DNA of 64,000 bases. Origin: Lysobacter sp. GTDB lineage: Bacteria > Pseudomonadota > Gammaproteobacteria > Xanthomonadales > Xanthomonadaceae. Positions 10,463 through 18,417 of this stretch are shown here, in pieces. The notes below the pieces were generated by a model. The model was not told the DNA's origin. It made no database searches and saw only the letters and a program-made list of their open reading frames with translations. Made by a program: the position numbers and the translations under genes. The DNA is taken from the NCBI GenBank assembly GCA_011526085.1, contig WYBC01000025.1:62001-126000 (forward strand), written 5' to 3'. How positions within the stretch are numbered: position 1 is the stretch's first letter; every line of letters begins with the position of its first letter.

Positions 10463-13000
10463 TTACGCGACCAAGGTGCCTCGGGACGGATTCTCGCGCT
10501 GCTGCGTCGTGTCCTGCGCCGGCGCCTGCGGCTGGTTCTGGGTGTTCTGCTGCATCAGCTGCGTGCTCTGCTGCACCGTCTGCTGCACCGCCTGCTCGCG
10601 ATCCACGTACACGCGCTTGTTCGTCGGATCTTCCAGTCCGCCCTGCACCGCGAAGAAACCGGCGTTGTTGCCCCCGGCCTTCACGTGATCGATCTGGCTC
10701 AGGCCCGACACCTTCGCCTCGAACGCGATCGTCGCCGCCGCGTTCTCGCGCTCCTGCGCGTTCTTGAACGTCCCCGCGGGCATCTGTTCCAGGCCCTCCA
10801 TCGCCTGCTGGTACAGCGCATTGTCCGGATGGTTCGGATTCGACAGCTTCGGCGACTGCTCCGCCTTCGACAGCGCCTCCAGCGTCTTCGGACCGGCGAT
10901 CCCGTTCTGATCCATGCCGTTTTCTTTCTCGAACGCCTTCAGCGCGTGCGTCGTCGCCGCATCGAAGGTTCCGTTGGTCGGAATCGGCTGCCCATCCGGG
11001 CCGCGGAAGCCCTGGTTGTTCAACATCGTCTGCAGCTTCGCCACTTCGGGGCCGGTCGAACCCTGCTGCAGGATGCCTTCGCTCGCCGCCACGTTCGCGG
11101 GAATCGTCGCGTTGGGCTGCTGCGGCGCATTCGGCTGCGGCTGCGTGGGCTGCGGTTGCGTCGGCTGGGGCTGGGTCGGGGTATCGGCGCGCGGTTGCGT
11201 CGGCTGCGGCGTGACCTGCTCGGGTTGCGCAGGCGTCGGCGTGGGCGTGTTCGGCTGCGGCTGGGTCGGTTGGGGTTGCGCCGGCGTGTCCGCGCGCGGC
11301 TGCGTGGGCGTGTCCACCCGCGGCTGCGCCGGCGTCTGCGTCTGTTCCTGGCCCGGGAAGATGCCCAGCGACTTCAGCGTGTTCTCGCCGGCCTTGCCGT
11401 CGACTTCCAGACCCTTCTGTTCCTGGTACCTGCGCACCGCGGCTTCGGTCTTGTCGCCGTAGAAACCGGTGGTCGGCAACGGCTGGCCCTGGTCGTCGCG
11501 GATGCCGGCCTTGTTCAACGCTTCCTGCAGGCGCTTCACGTCGGGACCCTGATCGTCATGCACCAGCAGCGTGCGCGGCGGGAATTCGAGGTATTTGCGC
11601 GGATCAACCGCGGTACCGCCGAGCACCACGCCGTTCGAGTTCTCGCGGGTCTCGAAGTGCAGATGGGTGTCGCCGCCGCTCGGGGTGTTGCCGCTGCGCC
11701 CCATCGTGCCGATGCGCGTGTTCTCGGTCACGCGCGCGCCCACGTCCACGCTGCGCGAATCCAGATGTCCGTAGAGGGTCTGCAGGCCGTTGTCGTGCTG
11801 GATCACGACGGTGTTGCCGTAACCGCGCATCGTGCCGCTGAAGATCACGCGGCCCGGGCCGAAGGATTCGATCGGATCACCGACGCGGCCGCTGATGTCG
11901 ATGCCCGCATGATTTCGGCCGCCGCTGCGCTGCGTGCCGAATTCGCCTTCGCCCTCGCCGGGCTTGTCGGCGCGGTTGACGGTGAAGTTGCCGGGCGCCG
12001 GCCATGTGTTGCCGCCGGTCTGCGCCGGCTGCTGCGGTGCGGGCTGCTGTGGCTGCGGCTGCTGCGGGGCCGGTTGCTGCGGCGTGGGCTGGGCCTGCGT
12101 CTGGCCCGGGAAGATGCCCAGCGCCTTCAGCGTGTTCTCGCCGGCCTTGCCGTCGACTTCCAGCCCCTTCTGTTCCTGATACCTGCGCACCGCCGCTTCA
12201 GTCTTGTCGCCGAAATAACCCGTGGTCGGCAGCGGCTGGCCCTGGTCGTCGCGGATGCCGGCATTGTTGAGCGCTTCCTGCAGTCGGCGCACGCCTTCGC
12301 CGCGTTCTTCCTTCAACAGCAGCGTGTCGCGCACGGTACCGCTGTCCGGCGACGCCGGCGTCGCACCGGGCGTGGTGCGGTTCGGCTGGCTGGCATCGAT
12401 CGGTTCGATGCCCTTTTCCGGGATCGCGATGCGGTTGTATTTGGTTTCCCAGTAATTGACGAAGGTCTGCGCGAGATCGCGGTCCGACAGGCCCGAGAGC
12501 TGGTTCCTGCGCACGCCCGTCAACCGTTCGACGTCGTCGCCGATGTTGGCGAGGATGTTGCCGCGGGTGTCGGTGTCGTTGAAGAACCGGTTGAAATTCG
12601 GATCCAGCGCGGCCTGGATCGAACGATAGCCGTAGGCGCCCTGCTGGTGGGCCATGTACAGATCGAAGCCGTTGGGCTGCGCTTCGCCGGACAGATAATC
12701 CCGGCCGGAACGGCCGTGGCTGGCGATGATGTCGTTGCGGTTGTCGATGTACAGCCGCGCGCCGGCATCGGCGTTCGCGATCGGATCGAGCTCGCGCCCG
12801 GCGATGCCGTACTGCCGCGCCGTGTCGGGCATGAACTGGAACAGCCCCTTCGCACCGCTGCTGCGGTTGATCGCGGCTTCGTTGTAGGTGAAGCCGGTTT
12901 CGATCGCGGTGAAGCGCAGGAAATCCTCGCGCGAAATGTTGTGGGTGCGTGCTGCGTTGTCGACGATGTCGAGCACTTCCTGCTTGGAATAATCGCGCAT
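10463..13000 (-). CDS. Modular peptidoglycan hydrolase (SLT + M23) with XVIPCD-like tail; candidate T4SS effector
   Basis: 845 residues, start ATG at 13000 with AGGAG six bases ahead. Domains in order: SLT lytic transglycosylase-like fold at 1-130 ('IETGF' with Glu34, 'GAKGLFQFMPDTARQYG'); peptidoglycan-binding repeat 1 at 228-297; M23 endopeptidase at 360-472 with the full Zn/catalytic set (H364/D368 in 'HAGID', H412 in 'YGHL', H446/H448 in 'HLHFE'); PG-binding repeat 2 at 478-548; a Pro/Thr/Gln linker at 552-636; PG-binding repeat 3 at 642-715; and a tail at 723-845 matching the Xanthomonas VirD4-interacting (XVIPCD) pattern ('HPDNALYQQA', 'AFEAKVSGLSQIDHV', 'FAVQGGLEDPTNKRVYVD', then a Gln-rich end). 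No signal peptide. Known XVIPCD proteins are exported by the bacteria-killing T4SS; export here is inferred. Confidence 0.88.
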   Translation of the reverse strand: MRDYSKQEVLDIVDNAARTHNISREDFLRFTAIETGFTYNEAAINRSSGAKGLFQFMPDTARQYGIAGRELDPIANADAGARLYIDNRNDIIASHGRSGRDYLSGEAQPNGFDLYMAHQQGAYGYRSIQAALDPNFNRFFNDTDTRGNILANIGDDVERLTGVRRNQLSGLSDRDLAQTFVNYWETKYNRIAIPEKGIEPIDASQPNRTTPGATPASPDSGTVRDTLLLKEERGEGVRRLQEALNNAGIRDDQGQPLPTTGYFGDKTEAAVRRYQEQKGLEVDGKAGENTLKALGIFPGQTQAQPTPQQPAPQQPQPQQPAPQQPAQTGGNTWPAPGNFTVNRADKPGEGEGEFGTQRSGGRNHAGIDISGRVGDPIESFGPGRVIFSGTMRGYGNTVVIQHDNGLQTLYGHLDSRSVDVGARVTENTRIGTMGRSGNTPSGGDTHLHFETRENSNGVVLGGTAVDPRKYLEFPPRTLLVHDDQGPDVKRLQEALNKAGIRDDQGQPLPTTGFYGDKTEAAVRRYQEQKGLEVDGKAGENTLKSLGIFPGQEQTQTPAQPRVDTPTQPRADTPAQPQPTQPQPNTPTPTPAQPEQVTPQPTQPRADTPTQPQPTQPQPTQPQPNAPQQPNATIPANVAASEGILQQGSTGPEVAKLQTMLNNQGFRGPDGQPIPTNGTFDAATTHALKAFEKENGMDQNGIAGPKTLEALSKAEQSPKLSNPNHPDNALYQQAMEGLEQMPAGTFKNAQERENAAATIAFEAKVSGLSQIDHVKAGGNNAGFFAVQGGLEDPTNKRVYVDREQAVQQTVQQSTQLMQQNTQNQPQAPAQDTTQQRENPSRGTLVA

Positions 13001-13048
13001 GGGATCTCCTGTCTCGGTCTGCGTGGTCTGGAAGCGTGGGTGTGCGGG

Positions 13049-13981
13049 TTACCGGGCGGTGCTGTCGGCGTACGTCTCGGTAGCCGCGTCGTAACGGTAG
13101 GTTCGGGTATCCGCGGAACCGGCGGGACGGATCGCGCCGTCGTCGCCGCGGGTACTGCCGGTGAAATTCACGGTGATGTCGGGCATGGCGCCGGCGGCGG
13201 GCGCGTCGAAACGCAGACTGCCGCTGTTGCGCACGCATTCGGTGTCGGGCGTGGACGGTCCCTGGCGGCAACTGGCGCTGTAGTCCACGCCGGACTGCAC
13301 GGTGCCGACATGGCGCCATGCGCCGTCCGCGCCGGCGTACAGGAAGATCTCATAGGCGCTGACGCGCACGCCGCCGGTCGCGACCATCGCACTGGGCAAC
13401 GCGAGCAGCGCCTTGTCCGGCGCGACGGTGTAGGTGAGTTCGACGCGTCCGGCATCGGCTTCGGGCGCGCGGCCCATGCCGCCGAAACGACCGATGCCGA
13501 TCTGCGGCGTGCCCGCTTGCCAGGCGCCGTCGCGCAGGGTGTAGGTGATCTGCGCGAGTTCCGCCTGATCTTCCGGCTGCGGCATGCCGTTCTCGCCGGG
13601 AGCGACCGTATCGACGAAGGCGGTGTAACGCGCCTGCCCGCCGGCGCGATACGCATATCCGCGCCAGAAGGCGGCCTGTCGTCCATCGGGCAACGCCGCG
13701 TCGGCCTTCGCGCCGTAGGCGGCGGCGAGCACCGCCTCTGCCGCAGGCGGCGGAACGGTGGTGTCCACGCCGGGCATCCACGCGACCGATGCATCGGCGA
13801 CAGGCGCCGCCGCGGGTGCGTCGACCGTCGCCGCGGGCGACGCGGCCGTCGGCGGCGCGGCGCGGCGGTCGCATGCGACGAGCGTCGCGCACAGCGACAG
13901 CGCGAGGATCGCGGCGCGCGATGCATCGATGCGGCGCGCGGCCGGAAAGGAAGTCGGAATCGGCGTCGTTCGCGGTGTCAT
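13049..13981 (-). CDS. Lipoprotein between the two effector genes; candidate immunity protein
   Basis: 310 residues. The ATG at 13981 is preceded by GAGGA. A lipoprotein signal peptide ends in lipobox LVAC (residues 34-37) with Asp at +2, which in Enterobacteria favours inner-membrane retention. An Ala/Pro/Thr-rich linker (about 40-75) is followed by one globular beta-rich domain with no family I recognise ('QITYTLRDGAWQ', 'ELTYTVAPDKALLAL', 'DITVNFTGSTRGDDG'). Its position, in the same orientation with 137 bases to effector B upstream and 48 to effector A downstream, matches the effector/lipoprotein-immunity pairing known for Xanthomonas T4SS toxins that attack peptidoglycan. The inhibitor role is inference from location and lipobox. 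Confidence 0.75.
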   Translation of the reverse strand: MTPRTTPIPTSFPAARRIDASRAAILALSLCATLVACDRRAAPPTAASPAATVDAPAAAPVADASVAWMPGVDTTVPPPAAEAVLAAAYGAKADAALPDGRQAAFWRGYAYRAGGQARYTAFVDTVAPGENGMPQPEDQAELAQITYTLRDGAWQAGTPQIGIGRFGGMGRAPEADAGRVELTYTVAPDKALLALPSAMVATGGVRVSAYEIFLYAGADGAWRHVGTVQSGVDYSASCRQGPSTPDTECVRNSGSLRFDAPAAGAMPDITVNFTGSTRGDDGAIRPAGSADTRTYRYDAATETYADSTAR

Positions 13982-14118
13982 CGGGTCCTCGTTGGCATGG
14001 CCTGTCCGGTGGAAAACGCCTCGCCCGTCCACAATCCGCGGACACGGAGAAGCCGTCCCTGGCACCATACTCCGGCGTTTCCGAACCGTCATCGCGCATT
14101 CCGTCATCGCATTCGACT

Positions 14119-16599
14119 TCATGCGAGCAACGCGCCCCGCTGCGTGTTTTCGCGCTGCTGCGTCGTGTCCTGCGCCGGCGCCTGCGGCTGGTTCTGGGTG
14201 TTCTGCTGCATCAGCTGCGTGCTCTGCTGCACCGTCTGCTGCACCGCCTGTTCGCGATCCACGTACACGCGCTTGTTCGTCGGATCTTCCAGACCGCCCT
14301 GCACCGCGAAGAAACCGGCGTTGTTGCCCCCGGCCTTCACGTGATCGATCTGGCTCAGGCCCGACACTTTCGCCTCGAACGCGATCGTCGCCGCCGCGTT
14401 CTCGCGCTCCTGCGCGTTCTTGAACGTCCCCGCGGGCATCTGTTCCAGGCCCTTCATCGCCTGCTGGTACAGCCCGTTGTCCGGGTGGTTCGGGCTCGAC
14501 AGCTTCGGCGACTGTTCCGCCTTCGACAGCGCTTCCAGCGTCTTCGGACCGGCGATCCCGTTCGGGTCCATGCCGTTGTCTTTCTCGAACGCCTTCAGCG
14601 CGTGCGTCGTCGCCGCATCGAAGGTCCCGTGGGTCGGAATCGGCTGCCCATCCGGGCCGCGGAAGCCCTGGTTGTTCAACATCGTCTGCAGCTTCGCCAC
14701 TTCGGGGCCGGTCGACCCCTGCTGCAGGATGCCTTCGCTCGCCGCCACGTTCGCGGGAATCGTCGCGTCGGGCTGCTGCGGCGCATTCGGCTGCGGCTGC
14801 GTCGGCTGCGGTTGCGTCGGCTGGGGCTGGGTCGGGGTGTCGGCGCGCGGTTGCGTCGGCTGCGGCGTGACCTGCTCGGGTTGCGCAGGCGTCGGCGTGT
14901 CGGCCTTCGGCTGCGTCGGCGTCTGTTGCTGGCCCGGGAAGATGCCCAGCGCCTTCAGCGTGTTCTCGCCCGCCTTGCCGTCGACTTCCAGCCCCTTCTG
15001 CTCCTGATACCTGCGCACCGCCGCTTCGGTCTTGTCGCCGAAATAGCCCGTGGTCGGCAGCGGCTGGCCGTTCTCGTCGCGGATGCCGGCCTTGTTCAGC
15101 GCGTCCTGCAGTCGGCGCACACCTTCGCCGCGTTCTTCCTTCAACAACAGCGTGTCGCCGATCCCGCCGCTCTGCCCCGGGGTCGCCCCGTTTTCCGTGC
15201 GCGCCGGCGGCGTCTGGCCGCGGTCGAGCGCGCGATGGAACGCCAGCCGTTCGTTGTAATAATCCACGGCCTTGTCGACGGTGTAACCGGCCTGCACCTG
15301 GCCGTAGGGCGAACCCGGCAACGACGCCCATTCCTTGCCGCCGCGTTCGATCGCGGTGCGGATGTCGCCGTTCTGCAGCGGCGCCATCACGCCGCGATAG
15401 TTCATCTTCGCGACCGCGATGCGATCCTGGCTCTCGGGCGAGAAATCGTCGATTTTCCCGTCGTAGCGCTTGCGCATGTCGTCGACATCGACCTGCTTCA
15501 TCTGATAGCGGCCGACGTTGTAGCGCAGTTCGTCGCGCGGCAGGGTGCCGTTGTCGGCGATCGCGGATTCGGGCATCAGGCCGCGACTGCCGGCCACGCC
15601 GTTGCGCTCGCGATAGCCGGCGGGCGAACCGTCGGCGTTGAGCGACTGATGCACTTCCTTCCAGGCCACGAGATCGAGATACGCGCGCACTTCCGGCGAC
15701 TGCGACTTGAGGAATTCGCTGGCGGCGAAGTTCGCCTTCGCGTCCGGGTTGGCCGGCGTCTGCGGCTGCGGCGTCTGTGCTTGCGGGGTCTGCGGCTGGG
15801 GCGTCTGTTGCGGCTGCGGATCGGCGCTCTGCGGACGCGGCGGCTGCGTGCCCTGTTTCAAACCGAGCGCGGTCAGGGTGTCGTTGCCGGCCTTGCCGTC
15901 GACCTCGAGGCCCCTCTGCTCCTGGTACTTCCGTACCGCCGCTTCGGTCTTGTCGCCGAAGTAACCCGTGGTCGGCAGCGGCTGGCCGTTCTCGTCGCGG
16001 ATGCCGGCGCTGTTGAGCGCGGTCTGCAGACGCGTCACCGCATCGCCGCGCTCGCCGTGCTTCAGCACGCCGTCGGCCATCGGATCGGCATTGACCGCGC
16101 CCGTTCCCGGACGCACGGCGCCGTTGGACTGGATGCGGCCGCTGGTGATGTCGTTGATGTAGCGCTCGAACACGGCCGCGGGCGCTTCGACGTGCGCATG
16201 CACCGAGCCCGGGCTGCCGACATCGCCCATGCGTCCCATCGGCTGTCCGTACTCGATCCGGCTGCCGTTCGCCGGCTGGCTACCGCGCGCCATGTGCAGC
16301 GACTGCGCCAGCACCCGGCCGTTGTCGTCGACGATCTGCACCGTGTTCCAGTCGTCGTTGAGCACGCGGATGGTGCCCGACGCCGGCGCCGGAATGGTCG
16401 GCGGGTCGATGATGAAATCCTTCTTGACGTGCGGCTCGGTGCGGTTGCGGGTACGCACCTCTTCCAGCTCACCGTCGATGGTGCGGTATTCGCGCCCCGC
16501 TTCGCGGCCGCTGCTGGGGTGATGCTTTTCCAGATCGCGATAGCTGTTGACCCGCTCGACGCGGTTGCCGACGCTTTCGGTGATGACGTAATTCGGCAT
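14119..16599 (-). CDS. Modular muramidase (lambda R/GH104-like) with XVIPCD-like tail; candidate T4SS effector
   Basis: 826 residues from the ATG at 16599 (MPNYVITESV). Domains: 1-60 charged and unassigned; 62-150 an M23-like beta fold ('PAPASGTIRVLNDDW', 'VHAHVEAP') without the HxxxD ligand pair, so probably inactive; PG-binding repeat 1 at 178-247; a Pro/Gln linker; 288-460 closely follows phage lambda endolysin R (GH104 transglycosylase): 'AYLDLVAWKE' with candidate catalytic Glu315, 'VGRYQ', 'DDFSPESQDRIAVA', 'GDIRTAIERG', 'EWASLPGSPYGQ'; PG-binding repeats 2 (484-555) and 3 (623-695); XVIPCD-like tail at 704-826, nearly identical to that of the gene at 10463. No signal peptide. It would be the promoter-proximal gene of the cluster. 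T4SS export is inferred from the tail. Confidence 0.86.
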   Translation of the reverse strand: MPNYVITESVGNRVERVNSYRDLEKHHPSSGREAGREYRTIDGELEEVRTRNRTEPHVKKDFIIDPPTIPAPASGTIRVLNDDWNTVQIVDDNGRVLAQSLHMARGSQPANGSRIEYGQPMGRMGDVGSPGSVHAHVEAPAAVFERYINDITSGRIQSNGAVRPGTGAVNADPMADGVLKHGERGDAVTRLQTALNSAGIRDENGQPLPTTGYFGDKTEAAVRKYQEQRGLEVDGKAGNDTLTALGLKQGTQPPRPQSADPQPQQTPQPQTPQAQTPQPQTPANPDAKANFAASEFLKSQSPEVRAYLDLVAWKEVHQSLNADGSPAGYRERNGVAGSRGLMPESAIADNGTLPRDELRYNVGRYQMKQVDVDDMRKRYDGKIDDFSPESQDRIAVAKMNYRGVMAPLQNGDIRTAIERGGKEWASLPGSPYGQVQAGYTVDKAVDYYNERLAFHRALDRGQTPPARTENGATPGQSGGIGDTLLLKEERGEGVRRLQDALNKAGIRDENGQPLPTTGYFGDKTEAAVRRYQEQKGLEVDGKAGENTLKALGIFPGQQQTPTQPKADTPTPAQPEQVTPQPTQPRADTPTQPQPTQPQPTQPQPNAPQQPDATIPANVAASEGILQQGSTGPEVAKLQTMLNNQGFRGPDGQPIPTHGTFDAATTHALKAFEKDNGMDPNGIAGPKTLEALSKAEQSPKLSSPNHPDNGLYQQAMKGLEQMPAGTFKNAQERENAAATIAFEAKVSGLSQIDHVKAGGNNAGFFAVQGGLEDPTNKRVYVDREQAVQQTVQQSTQLMQQNTQNQPQAPAQDTTQQRENTQRGALLA

Positions 16600-16875
16600 G
16601 ACGTTCTCTATCCAGGGAAGATGACGGTGCGAACCGGAGGACCGGATCGCGCCTGCGGACACGAATGCTTCGGACGATGGAGCGGAACGGTTTGGAAAAT
16701 ACGGACGCGCGATTCGGGCGGGACGGACGACGCTGGCGACACGGGGGGAATCCGTTTCGCGAGGCGGACGGACCGCACCGCGTCGGCACGGAAGACGGAA
16801 CGATCGCGGTGGCTGTCGGCAGCGCGGCGCATCGAGCGCACGACCGCTGACCGTCGGTCCGCGACCGTCGCGACC

Positions 16876-17295
16876 TCAGTGCGCGACGACGGAAGAATCG
16901 CGGTCCGCGCCCATCGAACCCCTGTCCCGCAGGGCTGCGGCGATCTCCCGCGACACGCACGGCCACGCATCCCCAAGACAACGGGCATGGCGTGCGCGGA
17001 AGCGCCCGGTCCGCGATGGCCGGCGCGGGCGGGGGACGCCGGAGCGCAGCGCTGGACCGACCCGGACGGAAACCGGGTGCGAGGGCTGGGAGGGGTGGGC
17101 GAAAACGTGGGCCGGCGCCTGCGCGCCGGCTGGGCCGCCCATCACGGGCGGCGCGGCCGAGCCACGCGAGCTCGAGCCGTGAAGGCCTGGGGACACAGGT
17201 GCGGCATCCGCCGTCCCGGTGTTCCGGATGCCCGGGGACGGACGCCCCGGGCGATGTTCGGCAGTGGCCACTGCCTGCAGTCTCGTATCAGCCAT
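16876..17295 (-). CDS. Hypothetical protein (uncertain ORF)
   Basis: An ATG at 17295 is preceded by GAGGAAG at good spacing and opens a 139-codon frame ending 277 bases before effector B. The product is rich in Pro, Arg, Ser and Gly, with no signal peptide, no membrane segment and no family I know. The first about 80 residues look more gene-like than the Arg-rich end. It could be a small cluster gene, a decayed one, or a chance frame in GC-rich DNA behind a real translation start. Confidence 0.3.
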   Translation of the reverse strand: MADTRLQAVATAEHRPGRPSPGIRNTGTADAAPVSPGLHGSSSRGSAAPPVMGGPAGAQAPAHVFAHPSQPSHPVSVRVGPALRSGVPRPRRPSRTGRFRARHARCLGDAWPCVSREIAAALRDRGSMGADRDSSVVAH

Positions 17296-17611
17296 GACAG
17301 CTTCCTCGTTGGATACGACTGGGTGAATTGGGTTGTAGGTGCTGCGGTGACGCGGAATCCGTGAACCTGTGTGGCGCGTTCGGCGCCTGTATAGCACGAC
17401 CTCCGCGGAAATGTCGCGGGCCTTCCCCGGACCGCGGATCCGGCACCGCACCGGTGATTTCGGTCGCCGCGACCGCAGGAATGCGCCTCAGACGCTTGAT
17501 TCGCAAGACCGCTCCCGCAGGTCGCCGCCGATGCCTCCCGGTGTCATCGCCATCGCCCGCGATCGACCCGCCTGCGCATCCCATCCGACGGGCGGTCGCG
17601 GGTCCCTGCGG

Positions 17612-17617
17612 TAAAAT
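17612..17617 (+). promoter_or_regulatory. Probable -10 element of the SDR operon
   Basis: TAAAAT lies 29 bases before the SDR ATG in otherwise GC-rich sequence. No clear -35 hexamer is seen, as is common in this order. Confidence 0.4.
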
Positions 17618-17646
17618 CGATCTTTTCGCGCCCAGGGATCGCCCGC

Positions 17647-18417
17647 ATGCAACTCTCCAACGCCCGCGCCATCGTCACCGGTGGCGTCTCCGGCCTCGGC
17701 TTCGCCGTCGCCAGGCACCTCGTCGCCCACGGCGGCAAGGTCGCGCTGTTCGATCTCAACGACGACAAGGGCGTTGCCGCCGTCGCCGAACTCGGCGCGG
17801 CCAACGCCTGCTATTTCCGCACCGACGTCAGCGACGAAGCCGGCGTCGCCGCCAACGTCGCCGCGGCGAAGGATTTCCTCGGCGGCCTGAACGCCGCGAT
17901 CAACTGCGCCGGCATCCTCGGCGCCGGCCGCGTGCTGGGCAAGGACGGCCCGATGGCCCTGTCGCAGTTCCAGACCACGGTGATGGTGAATCTCGTCGGC
18001 AGCTTCAACGTCGCCAAGGCCGCCGCGGACCTCATGCAGCACAACGAGGCCGGCGTCGACGGCGAACGCGGCGTGATCGTCAACACCGCCTCGGTCGCGG
18101 CCTACGAAGGCCAGATCGGCCAGGCCGCGTATTCGGCCAGCAAGGGCGGCGTGGTCGGCATGACCCTGCCGATGGCGCGCGAACTCGCCCGCTTCGGCAT
18201 CCGCGTGATGACCGTCGCCCCGGGCATCTTCTGGACGCCGATGGTCGACGGCATGCCGGAGTCGGTGCAGCAGTCGCTGTCGGCCTCGATCCCGTTCCCG
18301 TCGCGACTGGGCAGGCCGGAGGAATTCGCCGATCTCGTCGCCTATATCCTCGGCAACCCCTATCTCAACGGCGAGACCATCCGCCTCGACGGCGCGACGC
18401 GGCTGGCGCCGAAATGA
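17647..18417 (+). CDS. SDR family dehydrogenase, 3-hydroxyacyl-CoA dehydrogenase type 2-like
   Basis: 256 residues, classical short-chain dehydrogenase. NAD-binding 'TGGVSGLG' is at 11-18, 'DVSDEAG' binds adenine, 'NCAG' is the stabilising motif, and the catalytic Ser-Tyr-Lys triad is in '[23 protein letters not shown]'-type order. The overall pattern ('[23 protein letters not shown]', '[16 protein letters not shown]') matches 17-beta-HSD10/3-hydroxy-2-methylbutyryl-CoA dehydrogenases of fatty-acid and branched-chain amino-acid oxidation. It overlaps the next small gene by four bases (ATGA). Confidence 0.9.

Follow-up and report, generated by a model that had tools for sequence, protein, structure and literature searches.

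The DNA analysed here, called the window throughout, is a stretch of 64,000 nt from Lysobacter sp. (GCA_011526085.1, contig WYBC01000025.1, 62,001 to 126,000 of the forward strand). At 10463-16599 it carries an island of three genes, all on the minus strand, that encode effector B, the lipoprotein lipA and effector A in that order, and we describe them here as candidate toxins and a candidate antidote of a type IV secretion system (T4SS). The features of the island are the following:

14119-16599, minus strand: effector B, 826 aa, with an M23-like, a peptidoglycan-binding, a lambda-lysozyme-like and two more peptidoglycan-binding domains, then an XVIPCD
16105-16599, minus strand: M23-like domain of B (residues 1-165), HxxxD at 57 and HxH at 134, 88% identity to the B-type effector of genome G061
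15205-15732, minus strand: lambda-lysozyme-like domain of B (residues 290-465), in which the Glu at residue 315 aligns with a Glu of 1am7
14203-14496, minus strand: XVIPCD of B (residues 702-799), PF20410 at E 5.2e-28
14119-15153, minus strand: homogenised tail of B (residues 483-826)
13049-13981, minus strand: lipA, putative antidote (X-Tfi) of A, a 310-aa lipoprotein with Cys37 at the lipobox
10463-13000, minus strand: effector A, 845 aa, with an SLT, a peptidoglycan-binding, an M23 and two more peptidoglycan-binding domains, then an XVIPCD
12401-13000, minus strand: SLT-like domain of A (residues 1-200), Glu34 invariant among 12 aligned members
11633-11914, minus strand: Peptidase_M23 domain of A (residues 363-456), HxxxD at 364 and HLHF at 446
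10547-10840, minus strand: XVIPCD of A (residues 721-818), PF20410 at E 3.2e-28
10463-11572, minus strand: homogenised tail of A (residues 477-845), 92.6% identical to the B tail in amino acids and 93.3% in nucleotides over 339 codons
10414-10439, minus strand: terminator-like hairpin directly after A (6 such sites in the region against 5.8 expected by chance)

A check of coordinates and gene calls, the latter made with our own simple coding score, bore out the position, orientation and effector-lipoprotein-effector layout that an earlier reading of the letters alone (the sequence-only reading) had given. The genes are separated by gaps of 137 bp (B/lipA) and 48 bp (lipA/A) with no called gene inside either, and a sigma-70 scan found no promoter-like site. 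XVIPCD recruitment tails had been proposed for both effectors and a profile check found them, PF20410 scoring 98.7 bits in A and 98 bits in B against a cut-off of 24.9. Export signals were judged by a simple hydrophobicity score of our own and a lipobox pattern; by that score neither effector has a strongly hydrophobic N-terminus, in agreement with the proposed lack of signal peptides. Pfam matches and layout together support the view that these are X-Tfe-type effectors beside a lipoprotein in the X-Tfi position.

Effector A matches Pfam Peptidase_M23 at E 1.2e-26 and PG_binding_1 three times. Its SLT match (E 3.1e-4, 20.8 bits) lies slightly below the 21.3-bit cut-off, and a solved lytic transglycosylase matches the same domain at E 3.4e-4. 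By pattern, the N-terminus of lipA is a hydrophobic stretch ending in LVAC, with the cysteine at position 37. Relatives of lipA were detected in 69 of 297 genomes of the family at E up to 1e-3, and in 57 of them at E below 1e-10. We fetched 20 of these neighbourhoods and, together with loci fetched for other reasons, scanned 29 lipA copies, window included. The next gene was an SLT (A-type) effector in 25 of them and a B-type effector in none; three of the remaining four stand first in a tandem pair, and the fourth, L091, has no SLT effector. A named collection of Lysobacter, Luteimonas, Pseudoxanthomonas, Xanthomonas and Stenotrophomonas records, which overlaps with the 297-genome set, gave lipA within 700 bp upstream in 71 of 74 A-type SLT loci, the exceptions being one locus at the start of a contig, one from Neisseriaceae and one weak match in Rhizobium. 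This association suggests that lipA is the partner of A by descent. As a separate observation, lipA is tandemly duplicated before the SLT effector in Xanthomonas-type genomes (L075, L082 and other g7 loci).

A second lipoprotein family, lipBC, accompanies the M23 line of effector B. It has an N-half and a C-half, and its sole member in the present genome stands at C10:81355 beside a third effector, C, which carries an M23-like and an endolysin-like domain. Neither lipA nor lipBC had a Pfam, NCBIfam or PDB match beyond weak Pfam matches in single members, and searches by sequence or profile gave no above-chance PDB match linking the fold of lipA to XAC2610, PliI or Tsi1. Kinship between lipA and lipBC was considered and rejected, as a profile comparison aligned only the signal peptide.

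In B, Pfam finds three PG_binding_1 domains and a weak Peptidase_M23 match (E 0.013). Residues 290-465 match lambda lysozyme (1am7) at E 5.7e-14 and the phage hub protein 8kea at E 4.8e-24; we presume this domain to be of the GH104 family and use that name below. The reading frame is intact and HxxxD, HxH and the lysozyme-aligned Glu are all kept, which we take to be catalytic residues, residue 315 being presumably the counterpart of the catalytic Glu of 1am7. Both catalytic parts of B match separate parts of 8kea, one at residues 102-261 (E 5e-24) and the other at 751-897 (E 0.002), which hints at an origin from phage. Of 17 aligned M23-like domains in this line, 13 have lost the leading His of HxxxD but kept HxH (C-type example L028:6530-9226), and the four B-type ones retain that His.

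The two catalytic parts of B have different relatives. At E below 1e-27, a limit chosen after viewing the data, the M23 part matched 13 others among the 297 genomes, and every one had lipBC or part of it upstream, at 34-115 bp in 12 cases and 729 bp in one; the next M23 matches (E 7.5e-23 and weaker) had no match in the lipBC search. When 12 of the next 13 weaker matches were fetched, 10 proved to have a short relative of the C-half upstream, 6 of these at E up to 1e-3 and 4 at 0.002-0.035. These 12 loci had no N-half and no endolysin domain, and two of them (L277 and L283) also had no C-half. The GH104 part has relatives at 84-86% identity in only three of the 297 genomes (G013, G089 and G061), all of the same genus, where its N-terminal fusion partner is another domain (X_N) and the gene upstream encodes a further lipoprotein, lipG. 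All three lipG-X_N-GH104 sets share one chromosomal site, between an SDR gene and gmk, that elsewhere holds X-lipA-A-lipBC-C (G172) or X-lipBC-C (G115 and G137). With an M23 part from a lipBC-linked line and a GH104 part from the X_N line, B joins parts of two effector lines, and judged by these domain comparisons it is a chimera of M23-like and lambda-lysozyme-like parts from different effectors. The sequence-only reading had treated the two hydrolases around one immunity candidate as a unit; this is not supported, since A-type effectors follow the relatives of lipA and the catalytic parts of B follow other lipoproteins. Neither expected partner lies next to B in the window: no lipBC and no lipoprotein-like frame was found upstream of it, and tblastn of 16600-17700 for a lipBC or lipG remnant gave only matches at E 0.25 or worse.

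The link between lipBC and its effectors could be followed domain by domain. We searched six-frame translations around the lipBC matches (60 of 64 rows fetched) with profiles of both lipBC halves and of both catalytic domains of C. Among 60 groups with a lipBC half, 49 were directly followed within 1 kb by the gene of such an effector and eleven were not. The N-half alone stood with the endolysin-like domain alone in 20, the C-half alone with the M23-type domain alone in 10, and both halves with both domains in 14. The five exceptions are both halves with M23 only in L085, L128 (a contig end) and L129 (a fragment), and the N-half with both domains in L168 and L170. Thus 44 of 49 groups lie on the diagonal, and the highest value in 100,000 permutations was 33. 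Since seven of the 14 fused cases had supplied the seeds, the clean test is given by the split cases. There, the endolysin domain was present in 22 of 22 N-half-only groups and in 0 of 10 C-half-only groups (Fisher 1.6e-8; 2.7e-6 without four weak C-half matches; 1e-3 with one case per genus and state, genera being coded groups and related genomes not independent events). Two genomes, G292 and G156, each contain both split pairs. From this co-occurrence lipBC looks bipartite, its N-half going with the endolysin domain and its C-half with the M23-type domain. In the literature, judged by titles and abstract openings, we found no paper describing a T4SS version of such a split or dual antidote. 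At one locus (L179, G118 C6) three lipBC C-half proteins stand in tandem without a matching effector next to them, and single ones occur in L182, L183 and L186; these lonely C-half proteins look as if they were antidotes kept without a toxin.

The host genome (G000 in our numbering) is a 4.2 Mb draft in 48 contigs. Contig C36 encodes VirD4, VirB1, two copies of VirB2, VirB3, VirB4 and VirB6 by Pfam profiles and VirB5 by position and size only; C31 encodes VirB10 by profile and around it VirB7 (a 143-aa lipoprotein), VirB8, VirB9 and VirB11 by position and size only. The T4SS genes are thus split over two loci, virB1-6 with virD4 on C36 and virB7-11 on C31, with virB2 duplicated, and near virB7-11 on C31 lies a 165-aa protein that is little beyond an XVIPCD. 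In total the genome has 23 XVIPCD matches, all above the cut-off, in 22 called proteins. The sequence-only reading had seen no T4SS genes in the window and called the island an orphan. The first part stands for the window's called genes (no gene-by-gene T4SS profile search of the window was made); the second we reject, because VirB/VirD4 genes and XVIPCD proteins are found elsewhere in the genome, and the island is rather a scattered effector site of an X-T4SS genome. That reading had named the lack of both an XVIPCD match and virB/virD4 genes in the genome as grounds for giving it up, and the presence of both favours it. According to extracts of PMC6536674 and PMC6759196, X-Tfe genes are scattered and the antidote gene usually lies upstream.

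The best explanation, to which we give a probability of roughly 0.7, is that A and lipA form an X-Tfe/X-Tfi pair, and that B is a chimeric X-Tfe which is not the partner of lipA by descent and whose M23 part is covered in trans. The sequences themselves show the domains and the layout, that lipA goes with A-type effectors and lipBC with those of types B and C, the chimeric make-up of B and the near identity of the tails. The steps we infer, from recruitment and injection through enzyme activity to every act of inhibition, would run as follows. VirD4 would bind A and B through their XVIPCD tails and the T4SS would inject both into rival Gram-negative cells, where A, and likewise B, would cleave the target wall at glycan and peptide links. 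In the producer, periplasmic lipA would block A, most likely its SLT domain, and the M23 part of B would most likely be covered in trans by the C-half of lipBC encoded on C10. In X. citri an X-Tfi protects mainly against the cell's own effector leaking into the periplasm, as far as an extract of PMC10933484 describes it. If antidotes guard against such leakage, a missing antidote for B would matter.

Several points weigh against this explanation. The single strand, the short gaps and the lack of a promoter-like site make B, lipA and A compatible with co-transcription, so that a shared antidote is possible. For A, lipA shows no separate half to match the M23 domain. As for the lysozyme-like part of B, the genome has a single lipG-family member (C10:83366-83923) and it bears neither a signal peptide nor a lipoprotein signal, which leaves the cover for this domain unaccounted for; measured against relatives, this copy has a dN/dS (the ratio of nonsynonymous to synonymous divergence) of 0.45-0.51, where intact copies among themselves give 0.32. 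Since members of the lipG family are also found next to X_N genes that lack GH104 and, in G089, behind effector C, lipG is no more than a possible GH104 antidote. Finally, GH104 matches extend to 18 further genomes of 22, at 31-41% identity and mostly in short frames, and the lipoprotein context was read for the 84-86% relatives only.

The absence of either expected partner beside B could also mean that B needs no antidote, being weakly toxic or harmless to its host as a new chimera, a poor enzyme or an enzyme for a wall chemistry that the host tolerates. The frequent loss of the first zinc-ligand His in its M23 line (13 of 17) would fit, as some of these domains may be inactive. B itself, however, keeps HxxxD, HxH, the lysozyme Glu and an intact frame, and both of its catalytic parts show purifying divergence from their relatives (dN 0.08-0.10, dS 0.40-0.75), though this constraint may predate the fusion; we regard a harmless B as unlikely. 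It is improbable that lipA neutralises both A and B, one gene guarding against two toxins. In favour of such sharing, lipA sits between the genes of A and B and shares their strand, B has no other lipoprotein-like frame upstream and lacks its expected partners locally, and SLT and lambda-lysozyme domains have a related fold that might serve as its basis. Against it, the lipA family tracks A-type SLT effectors and was never followed directly by a B-type one, it is another lipoprotein that precedes the GH104 relatives of B, the M23 line of B follows lipBC, and a profile comparison shows no kinship between lipA and lipBC beyond the signal peptide. That B is an assembly artefact of mis-joined near-identical repeats is very improbable: the genome is a draft, exact runs as long as 101 bp are common to the tails of A, B and C, and a 44-bp repeat lies within B, but the M23-lysozyme junction (residues 165-300) has no exact match of at least 28 bp in the genome's other fetched loci, and at the thresholds used no second copy of either part was found in the genome except the distant M23 of C.

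The recruitment tails have a history apart from that of the catalytic domains. Within this genome, XVIPCD identity is 95.9% between A and B (95.6% in DNA, dS 0.13) and 95.8% between A and C (dS 0.15), with whole tails at 91-93%. Compared with counterparts in the genus, B and the effector of G061, and C and that of G013, have catalytic domains that are 87-88% identical and XVIPCDs that are 46% and 49% identical, respectively; between A and its G172 relative the values are 58% for the catalytic domain and 42% for the XVIPCD. In a tree of 23 XVIPCDs the A, B and C tails of this genome form one fully supported group, and the X335 tail of the same genome lies outside it. With groups fixed by catalytic domain, the approximately unbiased (AU) test rejected trees that hold the A-type tails together (p 8e-6), and likewise the B/C-type tails (p 1e-10). 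Treating each genome as its own group gave 20 changes in the tree against a shuffled mean of 23.6, a weak signal; in a stronger lineage test the groups were named after viewing the tree and eight rows were left out (seven long-branch X or G228 rows plus one), so the lineage count that it gives serves as description only. The simplest account of the near-identical tails would be gene conversion or tail copying between loci. Change in VirD4 as the driver of tail replacement was considered and is not supported: VirD4 is 88-92% identical in the seven other full-length copies, and the stretch 201 to 320, which we take to be the all-alpha domain, is no more divergent in G000.

Bartonella Bep effectors combine a conserved C-terminal T4SS recruitment domain (BID) with exchangeable N-terminal parts in a similar way; unlike the proteins described here they act on animal host cells and are not known to have immunity proteins. 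Effectors A, B and C each have two distinct predicted toxic domains, SLT and M23 in A, M23-like and lambda-lysozyme-like in B, M23-like and endolysin-like in C. One immunity function per domain fits the split cases of C and lipBC; for A and B no inhibitor pair was seen. From extracts of PMC6536674 and PMC6759196, the pairs XAC2609/XAC2610 of X. citri and Smlt3024/Smlt3025 of Stenotrophomonas are alike in their C-terminal XVIPCD, peptidoglycan-hydrolase N-termini and lack of a visible signal peptide, and also in the lipoprotein gene directly upstream and the scatter of effector genes away from the vir locus. They differ from the present case in that here each effector has two catalytic domains, B has no adjoining expected partner, and lipA and lipBC have no database match beyond the weak Pfam ones in single members. 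The WHIX 'double-blade' effectors of type VI secretion systems (T6SS; Awe1, AwiU and AwiD), as an extract of PMC12135965 presents them, also carry two toxic domains that each need their own protection. There, separate immunity genes flank a T6SS effector, whereas here, in a T4SS setting, the inhibitors appear as halves of lipBC, fused or split together with the effector domains. TseP, another T6SS effector, is a dual peptidoglycan hydrolase too (amidase and lysozyme), but its single immunity protein TsiP inhibits both activities according to an extract of PMC11893102, while our split cases point to one half per domain.

X-Tfe/X-Tfi pairs described so far consist of one effector and one upstream antidote. 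A broader picture, which we offer tentatively and at somewhat less than even odds, is that the toxins are exchangeable wall-cutting modules on tails copied between loci (concerted evolution), and that the antidotes would be modular as well, each half matched to one catalytic domain and joined or separated as the toxin domains are, so that shuffling may yield hybrids like B with scattered antidotes acting in trans. If this is true, domain shuffling can cost an effector the adjacency of its antidote, and the need for adjacency becomes testable; the natural N-half-only and C-half-only versions of lipBC offer a ready test of domain-matched immunity. Near-identical recruitment tails would then be a natural source of new chimeras and a route for renewing the T4SS arsenal, and for lipA and lipBC, both unannotated families, a function could be predicted in many genomes of Xanthomonadales.

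Three further loci came to light in the course of the searches. L258, from Neisseriaceae bacterium JH1-16, has an SLT effector with an M23-like (B/C-type) match directly upstream and no lipA, possibly an M23-SLT combination outside the family. In the present genome, L034:4457-6442 (C34:128956-130941) encodes an effector of 661 aa that combines a GH-E nuclease domain with two tandem XVIPCDs in one frame. At L033:1488-9215 (C17) a 2575-aa protein ends in an XVIPCD, and after it, on the opposite strand, come two lipoproteins (172 and 273 aa) that are related to each other.

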